Made by a program: the position numbers and the translations under genes
Notes under the pieces: model-generated
Seen by the model: the letters and a program-made list of their open reading frames with translations, nothing else
Database searches by the model: none
What the model was told of the DNA's origin: nothing
Source: Thermodesulfobacteriota bacterium
Lineage (GTDB): Bacteria; Desulfobacterota; UBA8473
DNA length: 64,000 nt
NCBI GenBank assembly: GCA_040757775.1
Contig: JBFLWQ010000013.1
Span: 1-64,000 of the forward strand
Direction: 5' to 3'
Shown here: positions 2,736 to 8,933 of the stretch, one piece after another
Numbering within the stretch: position 1 is the first letter of the stretch
Layout: each line of letters begins with the position of its first letter

Positions 2736-3908
2736 TTAAACCCTACATATCAGCTTGCTGATAGCAGCATCTAATCCCTCTAGGGTAAGCTCAAACATGG
2801 GGAATATTTTGCTAATCATACTTATTGTAGGATGATTCCACTCCGAAAGGTCTTCAGGATTTAACCATATGGCATGGGTAAAATGATCGGAGATGCGTTG
2901 AAGCCAAGCTATCCCCGGCAAATCATTCCTTTCATAATAGTATATTGCCCCATATTTCATTACCAGCTCCTCGCGGGCCATGCAGGCATCTCCAAGAATA
3001 ATCACTTTATAGCCAGATTCCAGGGTATTGAGCAACTGGGTTGTGCTTGTGGGCTCCCTCCTTTCTATATCTATATACAGGTTGTCATATATACAGTTGT
3101 GAAAATAAAAGTGCTGGAAATCTTTGAAATGGGTTGCTGAATGGGCAGCGCTGAAGAGTCTGCTGCAAAGCTTTGCATAGGGACTCATAGAACCACCCAC
3201 ATCCATCAATAAAAGCAGTTTTACTGCGTTCTTTCTCTGCCTTCTCCATATCAATTCTATCTCCCCTCCGTTTTTGCAGGTATGATCTATAGTGACATCT
3301 ATATCCAATTCATCCTCTGGCCCTATTCTGCTTAACCTCCTCAATCTCTTAAGGGCTATCTGAAAGTGTCTGACATCCAGAACCACATCATTCCTGTAAT
3401 TGCGGAATCTTCTCTCCTTTGCCACCTGGATAGCAGACCTGTTCATGGATTGCCCCCCCACCCTAATGCCTGCCGGGTTTATCCCGGAATTGCCAAAAGG
3501 GGAAGTTCCTCCTGTGCCTATCCACCGATCCCCACCATCATGGCGCTCTTTCTGTTCCCTCAACCTCTGCTTAAAGGTTTCCATGAGTTCATCGAAGTTC
3601 ATCCTCTCTATCTGAGCAATTTCCTCCTCTGTAAGTTGAATTTTGTTAATAGGGTTATTCAGCCATTCCAGTATCTCATCCCTTAGCTCTGGTGGGGTTT
3701 CGATACCCTGAAAATACTCCTGAAATGCCAAATCATACTGGTCAAAGTAAGCCTCACTCTTTACCAGGATTGATCTCGCCAGATAGTAGAATACATTCAG
3801 GCTGGATGATGCAAAGCCCTGGGAAAGGGCATCCATGAGAGTCATCCACTCAGTTATAGAGACTGGCACCTTTTTTTTGCGGAGGGTATAGAAGAAATCT
3901 GTGAACAT
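2736..3908 (-). CDS. VWA domain protein, CoxE/YehP-like
   Basis: This protein of about 390 residues carries a C-terminal von Willebrand A domain with a MIDAS-like LLLMDVGGSMSPY strand, and an N-terminal helical part (FFYTLRKKKVPVSITEW) characteristic of CoxE-like proteins. The second Ser of the DxSxS motif is retained while the first is replaced by Gly. The start at 3908 is preferred over an upstream ATG at 3962 because it follows a GGTAG site four bases after the moxR stop. It is cotranscribed with the AAA+ gene upstream. MoxR-VWA pairs act as chaperone-like assembly or metal-insertion systems, but the client here is not evident. Confidence 0.88.
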   Translation of the reverse strand: MFTDFFYTLRKKKVPVSITEWMTLMDALSQGFASSSLNVFYYLARSILVKSEAYFDQYDLAFQEYFQGIETPPELRDEILEWLNNPINKIQLTEEEIAQIERMNFDELMETFKQRLREQKERHDGGDRWIGTGGTSPFGNSGINPAGIRVGGQSMNRSAIQVAKERRFRNYRNDVVLDVRHFQIALKRLRRLSRIGPEDELDIDVTIDHTCKNGGEIELIWRRQRKNAVKLLLLMDVGGSMSPYAKLCSRLFSAAHSATHFKDFQHFYFHNCIYDNLYIDIERREPTSTTQLLNTLESGYKVIILGDACMAREELVMKYGAIYYYERNDLPGIAWLQRISDHFTHAIWLNPEDLSEWNHPTISMISKIFPMFELTLEGLDAAISKLICRV

Positions 3909-3912
3909 TTTA

Positions 3913-4770
3913 CTACCAGTTATACCTGTTTTGGCTTCCCGATACCCCTGTCTTCTTACCACTCAGGTAGTCATAATCTGCCTCTTTTTTCAGGAGGACA
4001 CCAAGGAAAGGGATATTATCTGAAAGCATTTCATGAGAGATTCCACTGGAGATCAGCGCCTGAATCCAATCCAGAAGTTCACTGGTTGAAGGCTTCTTTC
4101 TGAATTCATTGATACTCCTCAGCCAGTAGAATTTCTTGAGGACTTCCCTTAGCAGCTGGGTTTTAATATCCGGGAAGTGCACCATTACTATCTCCTCCAT
4201 CAACCCTTCATCAGGAAACTCAATATAATGGAATATACACCTGCGTAAGAATGCGTCAGGGAGTTCCTTTTCAGAATTACTTGTTATAACCACGATGGGT
4301 CTGTGTTTGGTCTTAATCGTTTCATTTATTTCATGAATATGAAATGACATCTCATCCAGCTCATTCAAAAGGTCATTGGGAAATTCCACATCTGCTTTAT
4401 CGATTTCATCTATAAGGATAACCACCTGTTCAGGTGATGTAAAAGCCATCCCCAATTTGCCAAGCTTAATATACTGTTTTATATCCGATATATCTTTGCC
4501 ACCAAAGCGGCTATCATTTAACCTTTGTACAGTATCGTAAATATATAATCCTTCCTGAGCCTTTGAGGTGGACTTGATATTCCACACTATCAGTTCCTTA
4601 TCAAGGGCTAAGGCTATATTATGCGCCAGCAGGGTCTTGCCGGTTCCCGGTTCTCCTTTCACAAGCATTGGTCTTTGAAGGGCAATTGCTACATTGACGG
4701 CATTGCGTAACGGTTCCGATACTATGTACTTGTGAGTGCCCATGAATTGATCAAACTTCTTTTTGTTCAT
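3913..4770 (-). CDS. MoxR-family AAA+ ATPase
   Basis: This AAA+ ATPase of about 285 residues has Walker A GEPGTGKT, Walker B VILIDEIDKAD, sensor TSNSEKELPDAFLRRC and the arginine-finger region RRCIFHYIEFP. The start at 4770 (MNKKKFDQFMGTH) has an AGGAGG site in the correct position. An upstream in-frame ATG at 4836 adds a non-homologous extension and is less likely. The VWA-domain gene follows at once, the standard MoxR arrangement in which the ATPase and VWA protein together remodel or activate another protein. No client enzyme lies in the operon. Confidence 0.92.
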   Translation of the reverse strand: MNKKKFDQFMGTHKYIVSEPLRNAVNVAIALQRPMLVKGEPGTGKTLLAHNIALALDKELIVWNIKSTSKAQEGLYIYDTVQRLNDSRFGGKDISDIKQYIKLGKLGMAFTSPEQVVILIDEIDKADVEFPNDLLNELDEMSFHIHEINETIKTKHRPIVVITSNSEKELPDAFLRRCIFHYIEFPDEGLMEEIVMVHFPDIKTQLLREVLKKFYWLRSINEFRKKPSTSELLDWIQALISSGISHEMLSDNIPFLGVLLKKEADYDYLSGKKTGVSGSQNRYNW

Positions 4771-4935
4771 CAGAATCCTCCTAGGTTCAGAATCTTTTTC
4801 AGTATAATTAATTAAATAACATAAAAAATAGCCCAAGCCAACAAAATAAACACTTTTTCGTTGAATTCTATACAGGTTTGTTATAATGGTTGTATCTATT
4901 CAGAAGCCAGTAGCCAGAACTCAGGAGTCAGAATA

Positions 4936-5556
4936 TTGTTAAAAGCTAACCTATACTTTGACCAAATCGACTTTAAAAAATACTTATCTCTAACCGACTG
5001 TAGAGAATGTGGGTTTAACAACTGCAGAGGTTTATTGGAGAAGCTTAAAACAGACGGGCCCAAACCCGAGGTCTATCCTCATATCTCTAAGAATATGGCC
5101 CATGCATTCAGTACCGCTTTGAATGCTGAACAGATCATTCCAGAAATTGAGCTTATGCAGCTTCCCGTCCCTGCAGAACCTGGCTTGGTTGAATTCAATA
5201 TGCCAGACAAAAACTCTTCTCTGCTAGTATCGGGCAATTCAGAGCTTACTCAATTGGCCCTTTCTGCCATCCTTGCCACAACGATCAAGCCTTTTTATGT
5301 ATTGTTTATAGATACTAAAGGAGATACGGTGGATATGTCAATGATTTATAAGACATTTACTGCAGAGCGCATTAAGGAGATGATTGTGGATAGCAGCATG
5401 AGTGAAAGGCTCAACCATAAGGAGATGATCATACCCGGATTTGCAAAACCAATAAATAGGGAAATAGAACGGCTTACAGGATGGAACGTTAATATCGGGC
5501 CTGTTTGTTGCGGAGAACTTCCCCTCTACTTCGGAGAGGATTGGGTAGCCCCATGA
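4936..5556 (+). CDS. Fe-S and CdhD/AcsC gamma-like C-terminal domain protein
   Basis: This 206-residue protein has an N-terminal four-cysteine iron-sulfur motif (CRECGFNNC plus flanking Cys) like the 4Fe-4S domain of the acetyl-CoA decarbonylase/synthase corrinoid gamma subunit. It continues with a domain resembling the gamma-subunit C-terminus: VSGNSELTQLALSA, DTKGDTVDMSMIYKTFTAE and MIIPGFAKPINREIERLTGW. The central TIM barrel of a full gamma subunit (about 440-460 aa) is missing. A TTG at 4936 with AGGAG at 4923-4927 is the better start. An upstream TTG at 4861 reads through repeat-like DNA. No other acetyl-CoA synthase genes are in view. Its 3' end overlaps the convergent gene. It may be a corrinoid-activation or methyl-transfer accessory factor. 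Confidence 0.75.
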   Translation: MLKANLYFDQIDFKKYLSLTDCRECGFNNCRGLLEKLKTDGPKPEVYPHISKNMAHAFSTALNAEQIIPEIELMQLPVPAEPGLVEFNMPDKNSSLLVSGNSELTQLALSAILATTIKPFYVLFIDTKGDTVDMSMIYKTFTAERIKEMIVDSSMSERLNHKEMIIPGFAKPINREIERLTGWNVNIGPVCCGELPLYFGEDWVAP

Positions 5557-6800
5557 ATTTTCCATCTGGTCTTTTTTTTGACGTCCTCTAACATTATGCC
5601 AACTCGGGCCATTTTTCCCCTTATCTCATCTGCCAGTTCCCACTCTTCTTTTTCTCTCAATTCACTTCTAACTGTTATAAGCAATTCCATCAAAGAAGAT
5701 AATAGATGTCTGTCTTTTTTTGATGCCCTTGTAACCTGATTTGCCATCTTCATTTGCATATCTGCCAATCTTTCATAGGCATTTAAAAGCGTATCAGATG
5801 TCTCTCCCTTCTCTTTCGCTTTATGAATGTGCTTCAGGATCTCCTCAGGTATCAGCATGGCAGAAGCAATGTCTTCTCTGTCGTTCAAGGTTTGGAGGAA
5901 TTTCTCTTCTAATTCTGAAATTTTCGTCAATAAAGGCTCACGGGGCGATACTGGGGGATATATATTCTTTGTATATGTGTTTCTTTCTCCTGACAGGGCT
6001 AATTCATCGAATCCAAAAGTCGAACCATTCGAAAAAGTTTTGTCACACCCCTTTTTTCGTAAAACGACCTGCCCCACCCCTTTCACATAGCATCTCTCTT
6101 GACTCAAGTCAAAGATACCTGCCGTATGTTCATCTATGCCTATTATAATGGTTAAATCAGACAACTGATTCTCCAGTATCTTGAGTCTGGGAGCACCCAT
6201 ATAACAAAACCTGGTATCGTGATTTTCTCCCTCAGCATTGTTCCAATGAGGGATGACGGCAAGATTCAATCCCATATCCCCGAGTAAATTAAGCCCGTTC
6301 ACCCAAAAGGGGTCTTCACCCACCTTATAAATTTCGTATACAGGCATAGAATATTTCCCCACACAAAGGGATGCAGCGCTGGCAAAAACGAGATGGCTGC
6401 CTCTATAAAGACTTTTTTTGATAGCATCTCCCACAGGGTTTCCCAACCAGTTTTTAAGGGCATACGTAGGGCTGCCAGGACCTGAAAAAATAAAGTGGGC
6501 GTTCATTATCGTATGAGCCACCTCTTTCATCATGAGGGGAGTCGCTCTGGAAAAATCCTTGAATAAAACTGGCTCCATCTTTACCCGAAAGTGCCTGTTA
6601 AAGTACTCTTTTGCTTTCTCTGATAGGATATCTGCATTGAGTTGAAACCCTGCAGGGGTATCGAGAAATACTGCCCTTACGGGCTTTTCCTCGATTCTAT
6701 CCAGGATTTCCTTATGTACCCTCACCATGGAACTGGTCATCTCACCTGACCCCATGAGGGTTATCGTTCCGTATTTATTGCCTTCGTAATTCTTCAACAA
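5526..6800 (-). CDS. Peptidase S51/cyanophycinase-like protein fused to a CysRS-like C-terminal region
   Basis: In this 424-residue protein, residues 10-270 resemble the class I amidotransferase-like S51 family (cyanophycinase, dipeptidase E). Visible are TLMGSGEMTSS, FIFSGPGSPTYALKNW, and a nucleophile-elbow-like FASAASLCVGKY where the family usually has a Ser in GxSAGA. From about residue 310 the sequence looks like the helical DALR and tail region of cysteinyl-tRNA synthetase, ending ELREKEEWELADEIRGKM, VGIMLEDVKKKTRWKI. The start is TTG at 6800 with GGAG seven bases upstream. No HIGH or KMSKS motif is present, so it is not an active CysRS. It converges with and overlaps the upstream plus-strand gene by about 30 bp. 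Function unknown. Confidence 0.75.
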   Translation of the reverse strand: MLKNYEGNKYGTITLMGSGEMTSSMVRVHKEILDRIEEKPVRAVFLDTPAGFQLNADILSEKAKEYFNRHFRVKMEPVLFKDFSRATPLMMKEVAHTIMNAHFIFSGPGSPTYALKNWLGNPVGDAIKKSLYRGSHLVFASAASLCVGKYSMPVYEIYKVGEDPFWVNGLNLLGDMGLNLAVIPHWNNAEGENHDTRFCYMGAPRLKILENQLSDLTIIIGIDEHTAGIFDLSQERCYVKGVGQVVLRKKGCDKTFSNGSTFGFDELALSGERNTYTKNIYPPVSPREPLLTKISELEEKFLQTLNDREDIASAMLIPEEILKHIHKAKEKGETSDTLLNAYERLADMQMKMANQVTRASKKDRHLLSSLMELLITVRSELREKEEWELADEIRGKMARVGIMLEDVKKKTRWKIHGATQSSPK

Positions 6801-6995: not shown

Positions 6996-8369
6996 TTAAG
7001 AATTGTTCTTCTTCTGGTAGAAATCTCGAGAAATTGCGAGAGACTCAACTGTTTCATCTATCTCATAAAACACAGGAAAGGATACGCTCTCTTTTAACCT
7101 ATCCACTCTTTCTTTCCACCCCTGAAAGACAAAGGCAATGGGTTTGCTGTAGCGTCTCATCAATTCTGATAAAAAAGTCGTTATATCTAAAAGGATGTTA
7201 TAGTGAAGACGTAGATTGTCCGTAAACACAAAGAGCATACCATCGAACTGTTCCTGTTTTATGGCATTTTCCAGTATGTATCTGTAGGACTCAAAGTTCC
7301 ACAGGTCACCCAAATCCAAGGGATTGGCAGTTTTTATTACCTTGGCACGGAAGAACTCCTGAATTTTTTTCAGATAATCATCTTCATAAGGGGACATCTC
7401 AAAGCCATATTTAGCACAGAAGTCGGCAGCTATCACACCGTGCCCCCCTGAACGGGTCATTACTGCTAGTCGATTTCCTGTAAGCTTTGGTAATAAGAAT
7501 ACCTTTGCATAATTTATTGCGTTTTCTATGGTTTCAGCCCTGATAATCCGGCCCTGCAAGCATATAGCATCAATAATCCGGTTATCATTTGCTATTGCTG
7601 CCGTATGAGATTTGGCAACTTCAACAGAGGTCTCAAACTTGTTAACCTTATGTAATATGATAGGTTTGGAAGATGATTGTGCCAGTTCTAATAGCCTCCT
7701 CCCGTTATTTAAACCCTCTGAATGAACGCAAATGACCTGTGTCCATGGGTCTTCTATCAGGTAAGACAAAAAGTCTGTTTCTTCCAGGTCCAGCTTGTTT
7801 CCCATACTTACCCATTTGTTAACCCCGATGTTTTCTCCGAAGAGAAGCATAAGATAGCCATTTGCCACACCCCCGCTTTGGGATAGAACCGATACTGGAC
7901 CAATCTTTAATGGAGGTACAGGCTGGAAAGGCAAACAAAGCCCTATTTCAGTGTTTATTACACCTACACAGTTGGGTCCAATCAATCTGACATTGTGTTT
8001 TCTGGCATAATTAAGGATATCTGCCTCCAGGTCAATATTCTCTATTTTAAATTCTCTGAACCCGCCGGTAGCTATATATATAGCCCGGGCACCCTTCTTG
8101 CCACATTGGTCAACCAGTTTTGGTACAGTTGTAGCAGGGGTAATTATAGCTGCAAAGTCTATCTCATCTGCTATATCCATAACAGAAGGATATATCTTCA
8201 ACCCGGATATATTGCCCCCTTTTGGACCAACAGGGAATACTTCACCCTGAAAGTGATTGTCCAGAAGATTCTGGACAATGTTTTTACCCATGTTATCTCT
8301 AGATTCAGAGACACCAATTACTGCAACTTTTCGAGGATAAAAAACAGTTCTCATTAAGTCATTCATCAT
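6996..8369 (-). CDS. CoA-binding protein, NDP-forming acyl-CoA synthetase alpha-subunit-like
   Basis: This 457-residue protein has an N-terminal Rossmann CoA-binding domain (KVAVIGVSESRDNMGKNIV), a central succinyl-CoA-ligase-like flavodoxin domain (GPVSVLSQSGGVANG), and the SHTAAIA segment holding the phosphorylatable His. This is the alpha-subunit layout of ADP-forming acetyl-CoA synthetases, which interconvert acyl-CoA plus ADP/Pi with acid plus ATP. The ATP-grasp beta part is absent here and in the neighbouring genes. It is a paralogue of the protein at 48496-49929. A GAGGAAC site precedes the ATG. It may pair with a distant beta subunit or serve another CoA-dependent role. Confidence 0.85.
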   Translation of the reverse strand: MMNDLMRTVFYPRKVAVIGVSESRDNMGKNIVQNLLDNHFQGEVFPVGPKGGNISGLKIYPSVMDIADEIDFAAIITPATTVPKLVDQCGKKGARAIYIATGGFREFKIENIDLEADILNYARKHNVRLIGPNCVGVINTEIGLCLPFQPVPPLKIGPVSVLSQSGGVANGYLMLLFGENIGVNKWVSMGNKLDLEETDFLSYLIEDPWTQVICVHSEGLNNGRRLLELAQSSSKPIILHKVNKFETSVEVAKSHTAAIANDNRIIDAICLQGRIIRAETIENAINYAKVFLLPKLTGNRLAVMTRSGGHGVIAADFCAKYGFEMSPYEDDYLKKIQEFFRAKVIKTANPLDLGDLWNFESYRYILENAIKQEQFDGMLFVFTDNLRLHYNILLDITTFLSELMRRYSKPIAFVFQGWKERVDRLKESVSFPVFYEIDETVESLAISRDFYQKKNNS

Positions 8370-8402: not shown

Positions 8403-8933
8403 TTAAACCAAACCTTTCAATGCCTTCTCATATTCTTTATATGCCTGCCGTCCGAAGAGGGCAAAGCGAACGAGCTGAATATCAAGGTTTACCTTAAGAT
8501 AGTCTATTACGGTTTTTAAGGCGATATTTGCAGCCTCAGCCAGAGGATACCCATAGGCACCGGTACTGATAGAGGGAAAGGCTATACTTATCAATCCCTT
8601 TGATGAGGCAAGTTTCAGGCTTTCCCTGTAGGCACTCTCCAAAAGTTTCGCTTCATTTCCCACCCCACCTCTGTATATTGGACCTACGGTGTGGATTACA
8701 TATTTAGCCTTCAGGTTTCCTCCGGTAGTGATTACCGCTTTTCCTGTAGGGCATCCTCCGATTTTCCTGCATTCTTCCATAATAGCTGGGCCACCAGCAC
8801 GGTGAATTGCACCATCAACACCCCCACCACCCGCCAACCTGGAATTGGCTGCATTGACAATGGCGTCGGTTTCTTCCTCAGTTATATCACCTTCAATCAG
8901 GGAGATGGTGGATTGGTTTACTTTAACTTCCAT
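8403..8933 (-). CDS. Macrodomain protein, O-acetyl-ADP-ribose deacetylase-like
   Basis: This is a 176-residue single macrodomain of the YmdB/MacroD type. Characteristic segments are GDITEEETDAIVNAANSR, the GGGGVDGAIHRAGG loop, YVIHTVGP and SISTGAYGYPLAEAA, including the Asn and Asp positions used for ADP-ribose binding and hydrolysis. Its length is normal. The start has an AGGAGGG site. It lies in a leftward run after the branched-chain-type binding-protein gene and before the CoA-binding gene, with no obvious functional link. It likely removes ADP-ribose esters or O-acetyl groups from ADP-ribose. Confidence 0.93.
   Translation of the reverse strand: MEVKVNQSTISLIEGDITEEETDAIVNAANSRLAGGGGVDGAIHRAGGPAIMEECRKIGGCPTGKAVITTGGNLKAKYVIHTVGPIYRGGVGNEAKLLESAYRESLKLASSKGLISIAFPSISTGAYGYPLAEAANIALKTVIDYLKVNLDIQLVRFALFGRQAYKEYEKALKGLV

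Follow-up and report, generated by a model that had tools for sequence, protein, structure and literature searches.

A conserved protein family joining an S51-type hydrolase domain to the C-terminal region of cysteinyl-tRNA synthetase, linked in Desulfobacterota and Nitrospirota to mycothiol-like genes

We describe a conserved protein family, so far without a name, in which a hydrolase domain of the peptidase S51 type is fused to the C-terminal, anticodon-binding region of cysteinyl-tRNA synthetase (CysRS). The family member with which we began lies in the first 64,000 nucleotides of a contig from a Thermodesulfobacteriota bacterium (the window), in which its genomic surroundings say little about function; elsewhere, genes of the family are found with genes resembling those for mycothiol and bacillithiol synthesis. 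Putting the domain make-up and this gene context together, we tentatively propose that the fusion acts on cysteine carried by tRNACys in connection with a thiol-like pathway, a reading that we would place somewhat short of probable. That the cysteine would be transferred to a thiol precursor is a narrower claim, and one we regard as doubtful.

An S51 domain and a CysRS-type tail in one protein

A reading of the window made from its sequence alone had divided the protein into an N-terminal half of the cyanophycinase/dipeptidase E type and a C-terminal tail resembling the DALR domain and tail of CysRS, and it had noted that synthetase catalytic motifs were absent. Profile and structure searches bore out each of these points. 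The features of the gene and its product are as follows:

5526..6800, minus strand: fusion gene, S51 hydrolase plus CysRS C-terminal tail, 424 aa (open reading frame with a TTG start; full-length homologs)
6003..6773, minus strand: S51 / PepE-cyanophycinase-like hydrolase domain, aa 10-266 (Pfam PF03575, PDB profile, Foldseek)
6378..6380, minus strand: Ser141, predicted nucleophile, motif ASAA, invariant (aligned with the S of GCSAG in 6nqc)
6246..6248, minus strand: His185, predicted catalytic base, motif IPHWNN, invariant (alignment to 6nqc motifs)
6129..6131, minus strand: Glu224, predicted third triad residue, motif GIDEHTA, invariant (alignment to 6nqc motifs)
5553..5939, minus strand: CysRS-derived C-terminal region, aa 288-416, DALR-like helical bundle plus CysS_C anticodon-binding hairpin (TIGR00435, PF23493, PDB 8qhp, Foldseek 1u0b_B)
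5628..5669, minus strand: predicted G34-pocket residues Arg378, Arg382, Trp387 and Asp391, equivalent to E. coli CysRS R423, R427, W432 and D436 (alignment to 1li5)

An adjacent in-frame TTG at 6797 is a possible alternative start. For the N-terminal domain, the Pfam model PF03575 (Peptidase_S51) matches residues 14-200 of the window protein at E=1.7e-4, with 21.7 bits against a cut-off of 23.9, and 10 of 13 homologs match the same model at E<=0.01. A profile built from the family retrieves the cyanophycinase-like exopeptidase 6nqc from the PDB (E=3e-11), and a Foldseek search with the AlphaFold2 model of the window protein (pLDDT 83) returns 6nqc, cyanophycinase 3en0 and PepE / dipeptidase E (6a4r/1fy2) at E=1e-14 to 1e-10. 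Ser141, His185 and Glu224 (S140, H184 and E223 in the alignment, which is numbered from codon 2) are invariant across 47 sequences and match the 6nqc motifs at the positions characteristic of the family; the corresponding PepE triad is given as Ser120-His157-Glu192 (PMC9239234). Because the Ser-His-Glu set is both invariant and aligned with the triads of 6nqc and PepE, the S51 active site of the fusion is predicted to be competent.

The tail is matched by positions 342-464 of the 466-position NCBIfam cysS model TIGR00435 (E=3.7e-10), the only part of that model to match the protein. CysS_C (PF23493) is found in 13/13 homologs (best 6e-9), its score on the window protein itself being 20.5 to 24.3 bits, around the 23-bit cut-off, and the family profile reaches the PDB CysRS structure 8qhp at E=1.1e-14. 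When a model of the tail alone was compared by Foldseek with 350,542 PDB chains, the best match was 1u0b_B, E. coli CysRS complexed with tRNACys, over 136 columns with probability 1.00 and a modest E=0.01. The motifs ADEIR, GIMLED and TRW, which the sequence-only reading had quoted, are present in the translation. An unrelated coiled coil had been set beforehand as the outcome that would overturn the CysRS assignment; the profile search found the CysRS C-terminal region instead, and we reject a coiled coil on the TIGR00435, PDB CysRS profile, PF23493 and Foldseek matches. A degenerate CysRS is likewise rejected, as the fusion is without the synthetase catalytic domain: in Pfam and NCBIfam scans the class I domain with HIGH and KMSKS was not found and PF01406 gave no match. 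The window genome encodes a separate, complete CysRS.

In the complex of E. coli CysRS with tRNACys, G34 is bonded by Arg427 and Asp436 and stacked on Trp432, while Arg423 and Asp436 reach it through water (PMC12684709). Among 47 fusions, the equivalent of R423 is arginine in all 47, that of R427 is arginine in 46/47, that of W432 is aromatic in 47/47 (tryptophan in 41), and that of D436 is aspartate in 47/47; the same R/R/aromatic/D pattern is kept in 9/9 proteins with a minimal hairpin and in 21/21 CysRS. Of about 50 columns in the hairpin, these contact positions belong to the dozen or so that are best conserved. Their retention favours RNA binding by the tail, a role in folding being the alternative cause. 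The earlier suggestion that the tail recognises tRNA thus gains support at the level of sequence, all four E. coli G34-contact residues being kept.

Distribution and age of the family

Across phyla the fusion proved to be neither a chance juxtaposition nor an assembly error. About 15 of 99 relatives carry it at full length, and a scan with at least 560 confirmed relatives placed it in nearly all of at least 80 named loci from Desulfobacterota, Chloroflexota, Nitrospirota and Dormibacterota. Full-length or near-full-length copies occur in 40 of 395 Desulfobacterota-phylum genomes (for two of the 40, G034 and G204, the alignment does not take in the full tail) and on four actinobacterial replicons. 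In a tree of tails, 52 fusion tails fall on one side of a branch with support 98/84, and CysRS and related tails fall on the other. Since the fusion tails group as a single clade separate from CysRS, their phylogeny fits a single old capture of the CysRS tail. The family is old and is present in Desulfobacterota, Nitrospirota, Chloroflexota, Dormibacterota and Actinomycetota; an assembly chimera or recent fusion is rejected given that it is kept across phyla with monophyletic tails. We also reject a mobile-element origin: the sole match in a phage search covers the tail region (aa 288-414), and a plasmid search yielded one plasmid CysRS and, on large replicons, four actinobacterial homologs of nearly full length.

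Within Chloroflexota the S51 clade takes three forms, with the full tail, with the last hairpin only, or with no tail, and S51 relatives without the tail keep the triad motifs. Annotated actinobacterial copies of the fusion are labelled 'hypothetical protein'. In the literature searched we found no description of the S51 and CysRS-tail combination, no paper mentioning cyanophycinase alongside cysteinyl-tRNA synthetase, and none that brings together mycothiol, bacillithiol and Deltaproteobacteria.

Several other architectures with CysRS-like sequence came to light in the same material. Two Desulfobacterota proteins of about 770 aa (L105:303-2624 and L101:66-2662) fuse a CysK (PALP) domain to a CysRS-like domain with degenerate HIGH/KMSKS-like motifs, and the L105 tail keeps the G34-pocket residues; many frames of about 780 aa among the tail-bearing proteins may be of this type. 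Candidate 'other tail proteins' of 211 and 247 aa were set aside, as they appear to be CysRS or CysK-CysRS genes whose reading frame is split. Two proteins of 723-728 aa (L129:2005-4191 and L130:842-3013) join a CysRS-like part to a C-terminal glycosyltransferase family 2 domain, Pfam-confirmed for L129, and come from genomes with an MshA-like gene and without the S51 fusion.

Gene context and the apparent ligase gap

The immediate neighbours of the fusion gene in the window are uninformative on function:

4861..5556, plus strand: convergent neighbour, CdhD-like fragment with a weak FeS match, its 3' end overlapping the fusion gene by 31 bases (outside the conserved operon)
6996..8369, minus strand, as the fusion gene: upstream neighbour, acyl-CoA ligase (NDP-forming)-like (outside the conserved operon)

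Also nearby are a gene pair for a CoxE-like VWA protein and an AAA/MoxR-like ATPase (window 2736-4836) and, upstream of the acyl-CoA ligase-like gene, a macro-domain protein (window 8403-8933). The thiol-pathway context is invisible from the window because the partner genes, a GNAT-MshA-LmbE cluster (L109 6966-10213), lie on another contig of the same genome. A radical SAM/SPASM protein (AhbD/NirJ2-like; L109:5707-6837) is encoded directly upstream of that cluster, as also in the close relatives L122 and L135. The sequence-only reading had proposed a peptide- or amino-acid-processing enzyme; the operon context in other genomes points more precisely to a mycothiol/bacillithiol-like pathway.

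In Desulfobacterota and Nitrospirota the fusion gene usually heads an operon that contains a GNAT gene, an MshA-like glycosyltransferase gene and often a BshB-like deacetylase gene; the cultured Desulfacinum infernum (L091) is among the strains that have it. Among 58 loci for which 4.5 kb or more of sequence lies downstream of the fusion gene, GNAT and MshA-like genes were each found downstream in 37 and both in 35, an LmbE/BshB-like deacetylase in 25 and Gfo/Idh dehydrogenases in 24, one with a ThuA domain; the partner genes are on the strand of the fusion and often only a few bases apart. MshA is by a wide margin the best family for the glycosyltransferase (NCBIfam MshA, E=1e-109), with 367 bits in the example scored and at most about 421 bits among the MshA-like genes against an equivalog cut-off of 462.5; the true sugar acceptor may differ. 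The deacetylase matches BshB1 (NCBIfam, E=8e-32). At about 24 loci (L029:7323-10053 and similar), a ThuA-Gfo/Idh fusion followed by a second Gfo/Idh gene stands between the S51 fusion and the GNAT gene, a pair that possibly serves the making of a sugar or cyclitol acceptor.

The GNAT, the closest operon partner of the fusion, mainly matches the general GNAT family PF13480 and shows weak FemAB similarity (FemAB_like PF04339, E=1e-5; TIGR03019, E=6e-5). FemAB-type enzymes use aminoacyl-tRNA, and judging from these profile matches the GNAT could itself be an aminoacyl-tRNA-dependent transferase. One might then suppose that a FemAB-related GNAT is the Cys-tRNA-dependent transferase and the fusion its partner for tRNA delivery or proofreading, but the main match is to the general family and the mycothiol acetyltransferase MshD belongs to the GNATs as well, and we consider this arrangement highly improbable.

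Of the 395 Desulfobacterota-phylum genomes, 31 have both the fusion and an MshA-like gene, 9 the fusion alone and 10 the MshA-like gene alone; an MshA-like gene is therefore present in 31/40 genomes with the fusion against 10/355 others (Fisher p=2e-29, a statistic that ignores relatedness). BshC (TIGR03998) was found in 0/36 fusion-bearing genomes tested, and MshC-like proteins (E<1e-100, with the match reaching the end of the model) in only 2/30 tested Desulfobacterota genomes with both the fusion and an MshA-like gene; neither MshC nor BshC was found in the window genome. Given that MshA-like, BshB-like and GNAT genes are present and MshC and BshC nearly absent, the mycothiol-like pathway in these Desulfobacterota seems to comprise sugar transfer, deacetylation and acylation with no recognised cysteine ligase. 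In the ten MshA-only genomes, several of which are incomplete assemblies, canonical MshC and the fusion are both absent. One MshC-like gene, in the Desulfobacterota genome G033, lies directly beside an MshA-like gene (L110:6108-9455), with the S51 fusion elsewhere in that genome, and another (L112:6187-7440) adjoins an OsmC gene.

Chloroflexota present a different picture. MshA-like genes are frequent in this phylum regardless of the fusion (177/251), so the co-occurrence is informative only in Desulfobacterota, and we rejected it as support in Chloroflexota. Of 12 Chloroflexota genomes that combine a full-length fusion with an MshA-like gene, 11 also encode an MshC-like ligase, and in the S51 tree the sampled fusions of this kind (L155-L157 and L100) group together, separate from the clade of operon-bearing Desulfobacterota. 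A strict replacement of MshC everywhere is rejected on these MshC-like genes. Actinomycetota make ordinary mycothiol. With MshC-like enzymes coexisting in Chloroflexota and full-length fusions carried by Actinomycetota, the fusion is not simply the missing ligase; replacement of MshC, if it occurs at all, which we think rather unlikely, would be confined to some lineages.

Coexistence with MshC-like enzymes bears on two hydrolytic alternatives. The fusion may be a stand-alone deacylase that binds tRNACys and hydrolyses Cys- or mis-acylated tRNACys, for trans-editing or as a regulatory step, without transferring cysteine or contributing directly to thiol synthesis. S51 members are hydrolases with the same triad, the G34 pocket is kept, and the fusion exists beside a complete CysRS in the window genome and beside MshC-like enzymes in some others; yet the operon with MshA-like, BshB-like and GNAT genes and the genome-level co-occurrence would go unexplained, and we judge a stand-alone deacylase unlikely. 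The second alternative is that the fusion, as a peptidase or amidase, cleaves some cysteine-containing metabolite of the thiol pathway, for turnover or to split conjugates as Mca does, with a tail that has lost tRNA binding and serves in dimerisation or substrate positioning. It accords with S51 chemistry, with the thiol-pathway neighbours, with the MshC-like enzymes just mentioned, with the triad motifs of tail-less and minimal-tail relatives, and with the thiol-redox genes that adjoin some of those relatives in Chloroflexota (mycoredoxin-like, AhpC/TSA-like and DsbD-like, DsbD-TM; L145:1439-1738, L143:3209-3535, L140:3670-4419 and L141:2153-2890). The four G34-contact positions, kept across phyla and in the minimal hairpin, are nevertheless hard to explain without RNA binding, and such a peptidase or amidase is at best a doubtful account.

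The fusion gene is not beside an MshA-like gene in the window, in several Chloroflexota or in Actinomycetota, a placement compatible with detoxification of a CysRS-directed aminoacyl-nucleotide or Trojan-horse compound, much as MccG acts on AspRS inhibitors. MccG, an S51 peptidase for which standalone genes are frequent, cleaves isoaspartyl-nucleotides (PMC9239234). Cleavage of a small adenylate needs no anticodon-binding tail, though, and the operon link to MshA-like genes would be left unaccounted for; we find detoxification quite improbable.

Proposed function and relation to known systems

Returning to action on tRNACys-borne cysteine, we infer the following course from the computed fold, triad, tail and operon linkage. 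The fusion would be an S51-fold serine acyl-hydrolase or acyltransferase directed to tRNACys by its captured CysRS C-terminal region. The tail would bind the anticodon arm of (Cys-)tRNACys, and Ser141 would attack the aminoacyl ester, just as the S51 enzymes direct their attack at the carbonyl of the N-terminal residue. In lineages that have the operon, the cysteinyl group would then be handed to the amino group of a GlcN-X pseudodisaccharide, itself the product of the MshA-like and BshB-like enzymes, or else to water; passage to the amino sugar would correspond to the step of MshC or BshC elsewhere, after which the GNAT would N-acylate the product. Transfer is the less certain part of this scheme and hydrolysis its first rival. 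A precedent is MccG, an S51 enzyme reported to hydrolyse an aminoacyl-nucleotide (PMC9239234). The thiol-redox genes beside some Chloroflexota relatives also speak for the scheme, whereas the S51 relatives that keep the triad motifs without a tail speak against it. Taken to its full extent, the scheme would amount to a tRNA-dependent route to a mycothiol-like thiol, in which an S51-fold serine acyltransferase joins cysteine from Cys-tRNACys to an amino sugar and replaces ATP-dependent MshC/BshC in anaerobes, a possibility that we entertain with considerable doubt.

If the tail does bind tRNACys, the fusion would be an S51 enzyme working on tRNA, and a widespread 'hypothetical' protein would gain a concrete function. 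Should it supply the cysteine-adding step, the ligase gap in the mycothiol-like operons of sulfate-reducing and related anaerobes would be filled and thiol supply would be tied directly to the charging of tRNACys. To our knowledge, the main low-molecular-weight thiols of these organisms are poorly known, and the family raises a testable question: which thiol they make, and from what cysteine donor.

As a whole, the fusion is neither a CysRS nor an MshC/BshC; its N-terminal part is S51 by fold and its tail is the CysRS anticodon-binding region by sequence. Compared with peptidase family S51 (PepE aspartyl dipeptidase, cyanophycinase CphB, 6nqc and MccG), the fold and the order and positions of Ser, His and Glu are alike, whereas the nucleophile motif is ASAA in place of G-x-S-A-G, and the fusion has its own conserved block, PHWNNAEGGxHDTRFCxMGE, besides the C-terminal CysRS region, with no evidence of Asp specificity. 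MccG in particular shares the S51 fold and action on an aminoacyl-nucleotide, but its third triad residue is Asp, it is directed at AspRS, and the part of the source consulted mentions no CysRS tail (PMC9239234). The C-terminal region of CysRS (DALR plus CysS_C, PF23493/TIGR00435) aligns with the tail in its entirety, G34-contact residues included; the fusion differs in having no catalytic domain, HIGH or KMSKS, and its tails form a separate clade.

MshC is a CysRS paralog. Any likeness of the fusion to MshC and BshC would lie in the proposed pathway step, which we hold to be far from assured. The catalytic domains are unrelated, and the fusion protein has no TIGR03447 (MshC) match at E<=1 and no TIGR03998 match. 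The fusion also keeps the anticodon-binding hairpin, to which three MshC-like proteins scanned gave no match. With PEARLs and FemAB-type enzymes, finally, the proposed likeness is by analogy, an amide bond that would be formed from aminoacyl-tRNA outside the ribosome by enzymes of different folds; cysteinyl-tRNA is described as a donor for such bond formation (PMC9016710).
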